A DNA stretch of 46,258 nt from a virus. The stretch lies in IMG/VR virus record IMGVR_UViG_3300048023_000615, positions 1 to 46,258 of that record; one strand, 5' to 3'. How positions within the stretch are numbered: the first letter of the stretch is position 1; each line of letters opens with the position of its first letter. The notes under the pieces are model-generated. The model was not told the origin of the DNA, did no database searches, and saw only the letters and a list, made by a program, of their open reading frames with translations. Below, one piece after another: positions 755 to 24,189 of the stretch. The translations under genes and the position numbers were made by a program.

Positions 755-994
755 TCACCCTTTAGTTCCGTATGAGCCGGACATTTTGTAGGTTTCGGTT
801 TTGCCCTCGAGCTTGTACCTTTCCTCCCCTTGCTGTTCGATCTTTTCATATGTACCTTTCGTTAGTGCAGGATACTGATTTGCGTACATAGACATGACTT
901 CTTCTGGTGTCATGTGTGGTCCCGGATCAGGTAAGTCCTTACCCTTGTACAGGAATCTTCTTTTTACTGGCTGGAATCCTTTGCTTTCTGACAT
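755..994 (-). CDS. PRTRC protein C-like (prokaryotic ubiquitin-like) protein
   Basis: A 79-residue protein resembling PRTRC system protein C, a small beta-grasp ubiquitin-like family (Prok_Ub) usually found in plasmid ParB/ThiF cassettes. Visible signatures are FLYKGKDLPDPGPHMTPEEV (residues 14-33), QYPALTKGTYE (40-50) and the C-terminal GTKG, the usual end of the family. Homologues are about 65-75 residues, so the length fits, with a slightly longer N-terminus. AAAGGAG lies seven bases before the ATG. It follows a protein E-like gene, as expected for a PRTRC remnant. No ThiF/E1 or JAB gene is visible in the window. Whether the terminal Gly is conjugated to anything is unknown. Confidence 0.75.
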   Translation of the reverse strand: MSESKGFQPVKRRFLYKGKDLPDPGPHMTPEEVMSMYANQYPALTKGTYEKIEQQGEERYKLEGKTETYKMSGSYGTKG

Positions 995-1106
995 GCTTTT
1001 CTCCTTTTATTTCTATATGTAGTTCGTTGTAGAAGTAGTCTATCTTGCCACCTCTACGTAGTTGTAGTGTCTCATCGCTAGTTAGGCTTATTACGATGTG
1101 CTTCAT
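939..1106 (-). CDS. Small hypothetical protein, 55 aa
   Basis: A 55-codon frame starts at ATG 1106-1104, overlapping the stop of the protein E-like gene (ATGA), and ends inside the ubiquitin-like gene. The product starts MKHIVISLTSDETLQLRRGG and continues with alternating hydrophobic residues (KIDYFYNELHIEIKGE), as in a short beta-sheet, then a basic tail. Stop-start coupling and the beta pattern argue for a real gene. The 56-base overlap with the next gene is unusually long. I do not recognise a family. Confidence 0.45.
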   Translation of the reverse strand: MKHIVISLTSDETLQLRRGGKIDYFYNELHIEIKGEKHVRKQRIPASKKKIPVQG

Positions 1107-1660
1107 AGGTCTTCTAGGGATAGGTCAGTTTTCTCCTCCGCTTTCTCGACGGCAGTCTTTAGCTCCTTCTTCTCATCCGCTTTGGTTGCTATATCTTCAG
1201 CCTCTTCCTCGGCAGTCATACGATCACCAGAGAACAGATCACCTTGACCCTCCTTGCCCTCAGCTTGCTTAACTCGTAGCTTCTCGCGCTCCTCTGCTTC
1301 CTGTTCTGCCTTGGTCTTCTTCTTGGGCTTAGGCTTATGAGCTGCTTTTGGCTTTGGCTTAGCCTTCCTCTTCTTCTCGTCTGCCAACTTCTTGATCTCA
1401 GTCTCAAGGTCGACAAGGTTAGTCTCGCCATCGATCACAACATTCTGCCAGTCCATTAGGTCTTGGAAGAACTTATCGTTATCGAATTCTGCAATGGGAT
1501 ACTTCTTGGTTACCGCACCACCTAGCACACGCTGAGCATCTTCGCATAGCTTGTCGTTCAGCATGGTAGGCTTGAGGGTAACAATTAAGTTCCCGTCCGT
1601 TAGCTCAAGATATACATTGAGCTTAGCTACATTTAGTATTGGTGTTAGTTCTGCTAACAT
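1103..1660 (-). CDS. PRTRC protein E-like protein
   Basis: 185 residues resembling PRTRC system protein E. The N-terminal part (about 1-85) begins MLAELTPIL and has the family pattern of a beta-strand pair ending in VTLKP, then a helical region. From about residue 95 it is highly charged, with KPKPK repeats and Glu/Lys-rich coiled-coil sequence to the end. AAAGGA precedes the ATG by six bases. The function of PRTRC E is not known to me. Adjacency to the protein C-like gene is the strongest support, because the two families co-occur. The low-complexity tail could mislead similarity searches, so only the first ~90 residues should be compared. Confidence 0.6.
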   Translation of the reverse strand: MLAELTPILNVAKLNVYLELTDGNLIVTLKPTMLNDKLCEDAQRVLGGAVTKKYPIAEFDNDKFFQDLMDWQNVVIDGETNLVDLETEIKKLADEKKRKAKPKPKAAHKPKPKKKTKAEQEAEEREKLRVKQAEGKEGQGDLFSGDRMTAEEEAEDIATKADEKKELKTAVEKAEEKTDLSLEDL

Positions 1661-2810: not shown

Positions 2811-3503
2811 TTATGCGAGTTCCTTTCTTTGTTTGATTTTGTATTTGTTAAGTGCTGATTGCACTTGCTTGAAGGTTTGGCGAATGTCTCCCTTGCCCTT
2901 GTCAACACACGCCATAACAACTTTGGCGCGCTCATCTTTGTTTTCTATTGGTGTCATACATCTGTTGTAGACAACCTTGGCTAGTTCCTTCCTATCTATG
3001 TCCGGTGCTTCGTATTGCATGAAGCGAGATGAGAACTTCGGAGTCAGATGCTCTGCTCGTTGCTCTGCTGTTAGCTTCTCATACTCTGCGCGGACACATG
3101 GTTGATGGTTAGTAGTTACAATGAATACCCAGTTGCGTGGTAATTTCTGCAACCAATCGTGCATATGGTCTTGTACATTCTTATGCACACGATCCACTTC
3201 GTTGATGATGATTACTACATTATCCGATTGAACATACATAGTATCCATCTTCCACTCATCCACGACCGACATGGTTACCTGAGTGCCACTAAGTATTCGG
3301 CGATTAACCTCTTGGCTCGCAAACTCATTGGCTATGAACTCGGCGATCGTAGTCTTACCACGACCTTCTTTGCCGTAGATCAGAAAACACCGCTCGCCCT
3401 GTCCGTCTTCGATCTCTTGCTTGATCTCTTCGTAGACAAGGGCGATGTCTTCACCGATGAGTTCTGTTGAGTCTTGCGGTTTCCATCTTGCCCAGTTTTG
3501 CAT
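2811..3503 (-). CDS. Clamp-loader-like AAA+ ATPase
   Basis: 230 residues with the order of an RFC/DnaX-type AAA+ core: Walker A GKEGRGKT (44-51), Walker B-like VVIIINEVD (96-104), sensor-1 VTTN (129-132), an SSR arginine-finger-like motif (158-160) and sensor-2 GDIRQTFKQVQ (205-215). The first acidic residue of the DExx box is Asn (NEVD); the Glu is kept. The protein stops right after the sensor-2 helical domain, so it lacks the collar domain used by clamp loaders to oligomerise. Known members load sliding clamps or remodel DNA-bound complexes. No clamp or polymerase gene is visible here. The N-terminus overlaps the preceding gene by 124 bases. Confidence 0.75.
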   Translation of the reverse strand: MQNWARWKPQDSTELIGEDIALVYEEIKQEIEDGQGERCFLIYGKEGRGKTTIAEFIANEFASQEVNRRILSGTQVTMSVVDEWKMDTMYVQSDNVVIIINEVDRVHKNVQDHMHDWLQKLPRNWVFIVTTNHQPCVRAEYEKLTAEQRAEHLTPKFSSRFMQYEAPDIDRKELAKVVYNRCMTPIENKDERAKVVMACVDKGKGDIRQTFKQVQSALNKYKIKQRKELA

Positions 3504-3971: not shown

Positions 3972-4237
3972 TTGAGATCTTTGGACAAGTACCCATCAGA
4001 TGCAGGCACATCCGTAAGTAGCATACCATCTGCACATCTCCTTGTTATGCTTAGCGGGGATTCTGGAGTGACTAGATGACGAGGGGTATCAATCAGAGAT
4101 ACAAGGGTTACTTCCTTATCTTCATCATACCTCATCCACTTTAGGTGAGCGGGATTAATCCAGAAGATAGTCCACTCAAAAGTAGCACGAGTGTAGTGCT
4201 GAGTAGTAGGAGTCCAGGCTGCTTTTATATTAATCAT
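3968..4237 (-). CDS. Hypothetical protein, 89 aa
   Basis: 89 residues starting MINIKAAWTPTTQHYTRATF, overlapping the ligase-like gene's stop by four bases (ATGA coupling) and the next gene by the same arrangement. It is Trp-rich near the start (WTIFWINPAHLKWMRY). No transmembrane segment or known motif is visible. Function unknown. Confidence 0.55.
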   Translation of the reverse strand: MINIKAAWTPTTQHYTRATFEWTIFWINPAHLKWMRYDEDKEVTLVSLIDTPRHLVTPESPLSITRRCADGMLLTDVPASDGYLSKDLK

Positions 4238-4986
4238 CTGAATCTATACTTTCTATGCATCTCCATATTCATGGACTGCGTACGGGTTAGGTCATAGGGC
4301 AGGGTAGTGTCCACAGCCACAATGCCTTCCCATAGATAGCGATCACCTACATTCTTATATATATTCTTCATAAGCTCATAGTTGGCTAACGCATCCAGTT
4401 GGTTCTTGTACACAGGTAGCTTCCAGACTGTCTTACGCATACCAGATGTAGGATGTGCATATATTATATCGAGTTGCTCGAGTGGGTTCATCAATAGACC
4501 GGAATCGAATAGCTCTTTTCGCGCGTGATAGTCAGCATCTGACCCGTCACAGCAATCTATAATGGCAGCCACTCTGAACTCATGCACATACTCCATGTCC
4601 CACCATTGCACATACTTGCACGAGTTGGTCAGTAGCTTGTCATGTATCTCATGCCTAGTCTCCCTATCCATCTTGGTGAATGGTTGCATCTTTCGATTGT
4701 ACACATTGCCATTGCGATCCATCAGTACACGCATGCCATTGAGCTTGGGTGTAGCGATGTCTCGTGCCGTGAGGCTAGGCGCACTACCAGTAGTAGGGCG
4801 AGGAGGGAAACCAAGTTTCACGTTAATTCGTGTTACCTCTTTGCCATCTCGCCAAGTTGTTGCTGTCTTGCGACATCCATTCAGCGTATAGCTATGCTCC
4901 TCATCCTTGTTGCCCCACTTATCTTCTGGGGTACGCAGATCATCTGATGGAGACATACGCCCATATTGTTGTTCGTATATACTCAC
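4234..4986 (-). CDS. Minimal ATP-dependent DNA/RNA ligase (adenylation domain only)
   Basis: 250 residues carrying the ordered motifs of covalent nucleotidyltransferases. Motif I is KLNG at 81-84 (Lys81 the predicted AMP acceptor; Asn in the usual Asp position), followed by an NR motif at 97-98. Motif III is DME (130-132), motif IV EGIVA (220-224) and motif V KYR (246-248). The enzyme would self-adenylate with ATP and seal nicks in DNA or RNA. The protein ends four residues after motif V, so the C-terminal OB domain of ordinary ligases is absent. An unusual ~75-residue N-terminal extension precedes motif I. Its start overlaps the stop of the next upstream gene. DNA versus RNA substrate cannot be decided from the sequence. 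Confidence 0.75.
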   Translation of the reverse strand: MSIYEQQYGRMSPSDDLRTPEDKWGNKDEEHSYTLNGCRKTATTWRDGKEVTRINVKLGFPPRPTTGSAPSLTARDIATPKLNGMRVLMDRNGNVYNRKMQPFTKMDRETRHEIHDKLLTNSCKYVQWWDMEYVHEFRVAAIIDCCDGSDADYHARKELFDSGLLMNPLEQLDIIYAHPTSGMRKTVWKLPVYKNQLDALANYELMKNIYKNVGDRYLWEGIVAVDTTLPYDLTRTQSMNMEMHRKYRFR

Positions 4987-20486: not shown

Positions 20487-21168
20487 CCGGAAAGTCCTGC
20501 TTTTTGGAATGACTCATTTGAGAAACAACACGCTCGATTGCCTTGAGAAGGTCGGGATCTTGTTCCTTAATAAGCTCAAACTTTTCCTTTAGAGTCTGCT
20601 TGAGGTACTCAGGATCTTTCTTCGCAATCCACCCCAAGGTTTTCTTGTGATGTTTTTGCTGACCCGGCCAAACATAATCCTCAGCCTTTTTGTCGGCTTC
20701 TCCATTGGATTGCTTGATCGCACCTTCCTTGACATCCTTGCGTTCCTCCGCCCGAGTATTTTTCTCATCCTCGCGAGCCACTTGCATGTACTCCTCTCCA
20801 TCAGAATCGACTGCAGGAATCCCACATACGGATTGTAAAGAATACCTACGGCAGTAAGAGATCACTCCCCCAGCAGATTGTGGGTCTGCTTTAGGTACTC
20901 GCATCGTGAATTCGTTGGACATGAATTGTCCACTCTCATGTACAATAACTGTTTCCACACCAATGCGATCCTCGCTAGTAATTGGGAACTGGGAGTAAGA
21001 TAAGCCATGTCTTGCGAACGGAGGCTTAATTACTCGTATAATAGACCCAAGGTCAGCGTACTTAGATTTAAAGAAAGGATTGTCAGCATCGGTTACTGCA
21101 CCACCCATCTCAGCTTGAGCCTTGGTTAAAGCCAAAGCTAACTCATTAATATTTTCAGACTTTTGCAT
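20476..21168 (-). CDS. erf: ERF-family single-strand annealing protein
   Basis: 230 residues. Residues ~20-120 show the ERF signature: NPFFKSKYADLGSI (30-43), PPFARHGLSYSQF (49-61) and QSAGGVISYCRRYSLQSVCG (97-116). The C-terminal ~100 residues are charged, helical and variable. ERF proteins anneal complementary single strands in phage recombination and genome circularisation. The gene is coupled to the nuclease downstream and overlaps the ParB-like gene's end by 14 bases. Confidence 0.85.
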   Translation of the reverse strand: MQKSENINELALALTKAQAEMGGAVTDADNPFFKSKYADLGSIIRVIKPPFARHGLSYSQFPITSEDRIGVETVIVHESGQFMSNEFTMRVPKADPQSAGGVISYCRRYSLQSVCGIPAVDSDGEEYMQVAREDEKNTRAEERKDVKEGAIKQSNGEADKKAEDYVWPGQQKHHKKTLGWIAKKDPEYLKQTLKEKFELIKEQDPDLLKAIERVVSQMSHSKKQDFPDAK

Positions 21169-22009
21169 AATTTGGTTTCCTTAATCTTGGGAGGGGTCCT
21201 GTTTTGGGGACTCTTGCTCTTGAAACGGTTTTTCCTGAAAACCAGTTGTTCCACATTATATAGAGGCCCTTGAGAAGGTAATGGTTGGTCAATTTGTTGT
21301 TCTCGTTTTGCATCCATGAAATCAAAAAGTTTCTGTATGCAAGAATAGGGCAACCACTCTTCAGTCCTTCGCCTGTATGGAATAAAGTAAGGCACTCTTC
21401 ACCTAGATCCCGATCAATCTTGCACAGATTATAGTGAGCGACCCCCATACAAGCAGGTCGAGTTTTGAGTTTGTACTTCATCTTGTGAGCGAATTGTACT
21501 GACTGCATTAATTCAGGACGCTTCGCTAGCTCTGCATCAATTTGATGATTCCTTACATCTGCAGTTGATCCCGATCCAACAAGTGAATCCACCAACTTAT
21601 TATGCTCTACTTGCACTTGAAGCTTTAGGGTAGCCGCTAATTGACTAGCATGCTTATGCCCCAAGATCGTGCAAATATCTCCCGGTGATCTCTGCTTACC
21701 GCAATCTACGGTGGCAAATGAATCGGGTTTAGCCACAAACGCAACCGCAGTCGTAAAAGACCTCTTAGCCTTAACGCATGCACTTAGTCTGTGTTGCCCG
21801 TCAATTAGGGAGTGCAACCAAAGCGGAGGGAACCTTTCTTGGGTTGTATTACACAACTTAATGGTTTCTCCATTTAAATCCCATTTCCCTCTCCTTATAT
21901 CTTCCGCATATTTTGAGGTTAAGGTAGGGGATAGTTTTCTATTCCCATAATTGCGCTCCAATAGCTTTACGGCTAGGGAGGGTTTTATCTCCATCACTTT
22001 TATTTCCAT
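21155..22009 (-). CDS. ParB/Srx-like phage protein
   Basis: 284 residues. NRKLSPTLTSKYAEDIRRGKW and the key motif LIDGQHRLSA (68-77), followed by VDCGKQRSPGDI (101-112), match phage and actinobacterial ParB/sulfiredoxin-like proteins that carry the 'L-x-DGQHRL' motif. In classical ParB the related motif binds CTP; these phage homologues lack the DNA-binding partition domains and their function is unclear. The C-terminal half is alpha-helical and unfamiliar. It follows the first HTH gene of the operon. ParB-like plus PRTRC-like genes in the same phage is noteworthy. Confidence 0.6.
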   Translation of the reverse strand: MEIKVMEIKPSLAVKLLERNYGNRKLSPTLTSKYAEDIRRGKWDLNGETIKLCNTTQERFPPLWLHSLIDGQHRLSACVKAKRSFTTAVAFVAKPDSFATVDCGKQRSPGDICTILGHKHASQLAATLKLQVQVEHNKLVDSLVGSGSTADVRNHQIDAELAKRPELMQSVQFAHKMKYKLKTRPACMGVAHYNLCKIDRDLGEECLTLFHTGEGLKSGCPILAYRNFLISWMQNENNKLTNHYLLKGLYIMWNNWFSGKTVSRARVPKTGPLPRLRKPNYAKV

Positions 22010-23156: not shown

Positions 23157-23179
23157 TTTTGTCAACAGTTTTGTCAACA
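23157..23179 (+). repeat. Tandem TTTTGTCAACA repeats at the integrase start
   Basis: TTTTGTCAACA occurs at 23157-23167 and 23169-23179, 12 bases apart; the second copy reaches the A of the integrase ATG. Possible integrase arm-type sites or an autoregulatory operator; on the minus strand each gives a TTGACA box. Confidence 0.45.
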
Positions 23180-24189
23180 TGAAGGTAAGCATAAAGGAGC
23201 ATAAGGTAAGAGGTAAAACCAAGTGGGTGGTGGATATGCTCCATGATGGCAAAAGAAAGCGAAAATTTTTTAACTCTGCAATGGAGGCTAAAACATTCAA
23301 TTCCCTAGAATGGTTTTCGGAAATTAAAAAGAAAGAACCTGTCGGAGAGGAAACATTATTATATATAGCCAAGGATTTATATTACCAAGATTACTTAAAT
23401 AATAACTACAATCCAAATAAGCCAAAGCAAAAGGGGTACAGAACCACCGTTGAAAGAGTAAACAAATTTACTGCTTGGTTCGGAGAAGGTCGAGCAGTTC
23501 ATGAAGTAACAGTAGAGGACTACAAGAAATATGTTAATTCTGGCAGATGGTCGGAGGAAACAAAAGCCGGATATAGTCGGGCTGTAAGAACTTTCATGGC
23601 TTGGTGTGCGAAGCAGAACTTAGGTGGTAATGTGACGGACTGGTATGCACAAACTAATCCCAAGTTAAAACTGACCAAGAAAAAGACCTATTTTAAGCTC
23701 CCAGAAATAGTCACGCCCGAACAGGCAGAAGGTTTATTAAATGAGATAACGGACAAATACCGTCCTGCACTTGCCCTTATGCTTTTTGCGGGGATCAGGC
23801 CGGAAATCGAGATGCTCACCCTAGATTACTCAAGAATCCGCTGGGGCAAATCTATCGGACTAAAAGCAGAACTTACAAAGACGGGTAGGGAGAGGTGGAT
23901 TAAACCACCAGAGAATCTATGGAGATGGTTACCCAAGAAACCAATTAATATAATGCCTAGTTACAATTCAGTAAACAAAGCTAGGTACAGAGCAGCTAAA
24001 AGATTAGGATTCAAGTATCCACCAAATGGGGCAAGACATTCTTTTGCTAGTTATGGATATTGGCACCTAGGATTTGAGTCAGCATTAGACATTATGGGTC
24101 ATATGTCATCAGAAACATTTCTCAAGAACTATAAAAACAATAGGGTGGATATAGAACTATCTGAAAAATACTTTTCTATAGTAACTTAA
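23179..24189 (+). CDS. int: Tyrosine recombinase (phage integrase)
   Basis: 336 residues. The C-terminal catalytic domain shows Arg207 (GIRPEIEMLTL), Lys234 (ELTKTGRERW), R286 in NGARHSFASY, His308 (IMGHMS) and the nucleophile Tyr318 (FLKNY). The residue normally His in HxxR is Asn283, a variation seen in some integrases. An N-terminal SAM-like core-binding domain (~55-155) precedes it. It would recombine attP (the tRNA-Pro fragment 127 bases upstream) with a host tRNA-Pro gene. The start follows the tandem TTTTGTCAACA repeats. Its stop lies inside a 22-bp palindromic site. Confidence 0.9.
   Translation: MKVSIKEHKVRGKTKWVVDMLHDGKRKRKFFNSAMEAKTFNSLEWFSEIKKKEPVGEETLLYIAKDLYYQDYLNNNYNPNKPKQKGYRTTVERVNKFTAWFGEGRAVHEVTVEDYKKYVNSGRWSEETKAGYSRAVRTFMAWCAKQNLGGNVTDWYAQTNPKLKLTKKKTYFKLPEIVTPEQAEGLLNEITDKYRPALALMLFAGIRPEIEMLTLDYSRIRWGKSIGLKAELTKTGRERWIKPPENLWRWLPKKPINIMPSYNSVNKARYRAAKRLGFKYPPNGARHSFASYGYWHLGFESALDIMGHMSSETFLKNYKNNRVDIELSEKYFSIVT

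Follow-up and report, generated by a model that had tools for sequence, protein, structure and literature searches.

The left edge of the virus record IMGVR_UViG_3300048023_000615 (IMG/VR; 46,258 bases, analysed over its whole length and referred to here as the window) probably carries the start of a PRTRC-type ubiquitin-like conjugation cassette with the order E-C-X-B-ThiF, namely genes E and C and a portion of X. This cassette would lack a JAB peptidase, its E2 and E1 genes would lie beyond the left edge, and its likeliest targets are proteins acting on viral DNA. Judged from sequence, a tagging system is the best reading of these genes. The PRTRC cassette of plasmids is equivalent to type 6d among the operons of Iyer et al. 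2006 (PMC1779556), in which the ubiquitin-like proteins of phages are those of tail assembly only. In the open-licence papers found, which treat PRTRC as a plasmid feature, we found no paper describing it in tailed phages and no report of its function.

The genes lie on the minus strand and run, towards the left edge, from an AAA+ clamp loader (2811–3503; T4 gp44-like; PHROG 168, 3.1e-20) through two further genes to protein E (1103–1660), a small ORF (939–1106), protein C (755–994) and an ORF (2–748) that is cut by the edge, so that the window stops 754 nt downstream of C, within the gene in the F position. The span of 755–1660 that the first-pass annotation had assigned to C and E was confirmed, with both genes on the minus strand, and its proposal that phage-borne PRTRC C and E sit in an early operon is supported, this being an early or replication operon. 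The clamp loader also forms the left flank of the cassette in related viruses, as revealed by synteny. The small ORF specifies 55 amino acids and overlaps the ends of E and C, in C at its start; it shows 41% identity (2e-12) to an ORF in the same place in the relative G005, lacks a clear ribosome-binding site, and is of uncertain membership in the cassette. Elsewhere in the window, the protein encoded at 4234–4986 possesses, by eye, a KLNG-x-R motif resembling the adenylation site of ATP-dependent DNA ligases and matches nothing in Pfam or PHROG at E 0.01, and 23179–24189 encodes a tyrosine integrase (PHROG 1). A second integrase-family gene (PF00589) is located beyond the SNF2 helicase in the relatives of this virus.

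Protein C, a 79 amino acid ubiquitin-like tag which ends exactly in GTKG, as had been claimed for it, passes the PRTRC_C model narrowly (TIGR03738; 46.5 bits, cut-off 45.95, E 2.9e-12) and the Prok_Ub model clearly (PF14454; 50.6 bits, cut-off 25). Comparison with nine C proteins from plasmids and phages showed that it retains every one of the nine invariant alignment columns, including D23-P24 and the terminal G-x-K-G. On these matches the protein is a genuine PRTRC protein C, in agreement with its earlier designation. Structure prediction, which the first-pass annotation had suggested, was carried out with AlphaFold from 20 sequences and gave a model (pLDDT 76) with the order beta-beta-alpha-beta-beta. 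SUMO, ubiquitin-like and PB1 domains predominated among its top PDB neighbours, with no individual match reaching significance, so the predicted beta-grasp-like fold is supportive only.

Protein E (185 amino acids) consists of a conserved N-terminal domain and a Lys-rich tail. The annotation of this gene as PRTRC E fared less evenly, since no curated NCBIfam, Pfam or PHROG model identified it, and a profile made from plasmid E proteins only was too weak to place it. A profile of plasmid and viral N-terminal domains, from which the window protein and its two nearest relatives had been held out, did find it among ORF decoys (E 8.6e-7) and matched none of 20 shuffled copies. Without its Lys-rich tail, the N-terminal 100 residues match the E protein of G005 by blastp at 3.6e-22, and a related viral E (L126:8221-8709) exceeds the cut-offs of both TIGR03741 (49.3 vs 37.95) and PF19556 (33.8 vs 26). 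Because the held-out profile and these intermediate viral homologs connect the window protein to the E family, its identity as a diverged PRTRC protein E is established through intermediates, at the level of sequence similarity.

The window itself contains no E1 or E2 gene, and the first-pass annotation had considered that C and E might be a reduced PRTRC module devoid of E1. Scans of viral contigs with the window C or X alone returned no match; relatives were reached through the window terminase, whose close relatives are present in IMG/VR. Seven of the contigs found in this way, four of them about 78–81 kb in length, encode a PRTRC ThiF above the TIGR03736 cut-off, immediately preceded by an E2-like B. 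The gene order in the relatives is clamp loader - helper - ... - E - C - X - B - ThiF - ... - SNF2 helicase. No clamp loader was detected in G018, the outermost member, in which E lies near the start of the contig. A second scan with a viral ThiF as query added further contigs. With near-identical contigs counted once, eight lineages possess all five cassette genes, and a ninth, G003, is on a contig that likewise begins within X and goes on to B and ThiF.

A virus that retained only C and E, and perhaps X, without E1 and E2, would account for the window as it stands, which holds just E, C and part of X, with a C barely above the strict cut-off. Nevertheless, the contig breaks off within X, which in the relatives immediately precedes B-ThiF, and hence the missing E1 is probably an artefact of the edge. 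Furthermore, the closest known X (in G003, 59% identical) is followed by B and ThiF, the relatives carry either all five genes or none, and in the window neither the reading frames nor the terminal GTKG is disrupted. We consider such degeneration very improbable. Although an exact-match search revealed no contig overlapping the left edge of the window, we infer by analogy with these relatives that the virus has its own B and ThiF.

The viral B proteins match Prok-E2_D (PF14460) at 57 and 70 bits (cut-off 25) and fall below the stricter PRTRC_B cut-off (TIGR03737). Every B protein aligned has one Cys at the same motif, the automatic alignment shifting the viral Cys by a few columns. Eight of the nine viral B proteins contain D-x-H 7–9 residues before this Cys, approximately where classical E2 enzymes carry a His. 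Most plasmid B proteins have a His downstream of the Cys, which has been proposed to complete the active site of the family (Iyer et al. 2006, PMC1779556), whereas the viral group is without it. Viral ThiF retains the GxGGxG nucleotide-binding motif, together with Asp, Asn, Arg, Lys and Cys at the positions that are invariant among 12 plasmid, phage and viral copies.

The product of the F-position gene, of which 249 residues are visible (2–748), is referred to here as protein X. It is homologous to the X proteins of G005 (36% identity, 4e-41) and G003 (2e-24 over the piece of X present there), both of which continue with B and then ThiF. PRTRC protein F (TIGR03742) was not encountered; X has no detectable homology to the F, B, A, E or ThiF profiles, and a PDB search with its fold model (pLDDT 66) gave no match. 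Contig L139 was considered as a bridge between X and F and was rejected, its F match having vanished against decoys.

Two relatives (G020 and G023) keep the clamp loader and the SNF2 helicase and are without E, C, X, B and ThiF, none of which gave a profile match at E up to 1. The cassette is likewise absent beside the SNF2 gene in G026 and G027, in which the clamp loader was not recognised. Since two relatives retain both flanks and are yet devoid of all five genes, the cassette behaves as one accessory unit. X comes and goes together with the rest, which makes it a probable working component.

The first-pass annotation had also remarked on the lack of a visible E1 and JAB gene; while the former is probably due to the contig edge, the absence of JAB holds for the viral group. 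PRTRC A (TIGR03735) has no match in the viral relatives, and no Prok-JAB match exceeds the cut-off in 14 records. A is absent from several plasmid cassettes too. Weak JAB-like matches in G005 and G018 were rejected as PRTRC A, being mutual homologs of the RadC family (PF04002). These proteins (L124:5899-6348 and its homolog in L128) carry a JAMM motif and are encoded near the SNF2 helicase, the L128 gene adjoining both ThiF and SNF2. No PRTRC ParB (TIGR03734) exceeded the cut-off, either in the window or in nine relatives, although the positive control was detected. The gene at 21155–22009, previously called ParB-like, belongs instead to PHROG 5931; it has a DGQHR motif and no Pfam ParB match, and the motif recalls the ParB/Srx fold.

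A comparison of plasmid, phage and IMG/VR cassettes revealed that residues follow the GxKG of protein C (3 to 72 of them) in seven of 11 loci with A and in none of 36 in which A was not found (Fisher p 5e-6; 1e-5 after removal of four near-duplicates). Collapsed by hand to 8 vs 7 lineages, which handles relatedness crudely, the association gives p 0.026. If loci without ThiF in the stretch read are left out, because the absence of A is less sure there, the counts become 7/10 vs 0/26. Since C extends past GxKG only at loci with a JAB gene, the data fit a role for A as a maturing peptidase, with the JAB-less versions as pre-matured tags. This link between JAB and the C extension is a simple, testable statement on tag maturation.

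How might such a tag be used? ThiF would adenylate the C-terminal Gly of C, which would then be handed to the conserved Cys of B and attached to amino groups on target proteins, with E as an adaptor or first acceptor. A maturing JAB peptidase would be dispensable, because C stops at the active Gly without extension. The targets would most likely be proteins, of the virus or the host, that act on viral DNA. We infer both the conjugation and the identity of the targets: activation by ThiF and transfer through B are suggested by the families of these proteins, and the remaining steps by the neighbourhood. Targets acting on viral DNA are favoured because the cassette is one unit inside a replication block bounded by clamp loader and SNF2 helicase; plasmid PRTRC cassettes also adjoin dnaN, dnaG or SNF2 genes, and thus point in the same direction.

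The position within the replication block may, on the other hand, reflect early expression merely. The same enzymes could then serve counter-defence or host takeover, tagging host proteins of defence systems or of the host replisome and thereby inactivating or redirecting them. The all-or-none presence of an accessory unit among related viruses fits a role in an arms race, as does its residence in an early gene block, but plasmid cassettes lie beside replication and partition genes, which suggests a function in the upkeep of the element itself, and we regard takeover as possible though unlikely. More speculatively, this group of tailed viruses might tag its own replication machinery, for example the clamp, the clamp loader or the SNF2 helicase, through its own E1 and E2, with a pre-matured tag and no deconjugating JAB. 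This narrower proposal is a doubtful one; if true, it would represent a viral analogue of PCNA modification in which the tag is possibly irreversible. A compact JAB-less version, linked to a viral replication block and present or absent at the same site among relatives, offers a small genetic system for prokaryotic ubiquitin-like conjugation outside host immunity.

ThiF-type E1 enzymes and small Gly-ended beta-grasp proteins are also parts of sulfur-carrier systems, and ThiF could conceivably thiocarboxylate C so that, as with ThiS or MoaD, sulfur is passed on to nucleotide or DNA modification. The occurrence of the DNA-modification gene DpdA in relatives would suit such a pathway. Against this, the unit includes an E2-like protein whose Cys is conserved, none of 12 viral records contains a rhodanese (PF00581), and relatives without the cassette likewise possess DpdA and SNF2-type genes, which makes sulfur transfer improbable and conjugation to proteins the preferred reading. 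DpdA (PF23859) lies near the cassette in relatives (L126:5002-5895; L124:6608-9175), and the best PADLOC match of their SNF2 helicase is DpdE, for which reason 7-deazaguanine DNA modification is likely in this virus group; the window contains neither DpdA nor SNF2.

The viral cassette resembles plasmid PRTRC (TIGR03734-TIGR03742) in the order E-C-(F position)-B-ThiF and in possessing a ubiquitin-like C with a terminal Gly, an E2-like B with its Cys and an E1-like ThiF. It differs in being virus-borne and within a replication block, in the absence of A/JAB and of the PRTRC ParB, in an X that is unrelated to F by sequence, and in the B residues described above. The JAB-less cassettes of Pseudomonas, Deinococcus and Parabacteroides plasmids are similar in having no A and a C that ends exactly at the terminal Gly, but most of those from Pseudomonas encode PRTRC ParB, and the protein in their F position is long. 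The E1-E2 conjugation of type II CBASS (PMC10097602) shares the E1-like adenylation domain, and viral ThiF gave weak matches to the PADLOC E1-E2 models; in contrast to CBASS, the viral cassette has separate E1 and E2 proteins and its own ubiquitin-like protein, has no visible CD-NTase and is carried by a virus.

A ThiF tree unites the viral group in one clade (support 95/87) within PRTRC ThiF, its nearest neighbours, with moderate support (89/94), being contig L139 and the Mu-like Burkholderia phage BgVeeders33 (OK665841). Like the viral group, this is a tailed phage with E, C, F, B and ThiF in identical order, but it is of another phage type and possesses its own JAB (A), a 62-residue extension of C and a true F. 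Since BgVeeders33 has a full cassette, the viral group is not alone among tailed phages in carrying PRTRC. Its cassette (OK665841.1), complete including JAB, is annotated mostly as hypothetical proteins, and the phage is an isolate workable for experiments. A scan of genome contigs for a prophage copy of the cassette returned distant ThiF proteins only. The IMG/VR contigs L013-L024 contain a Bacteroidetes-type PRTRC without JAB, close to that of a Parabacteroides plasmid, and some of these also encode a terminase match.
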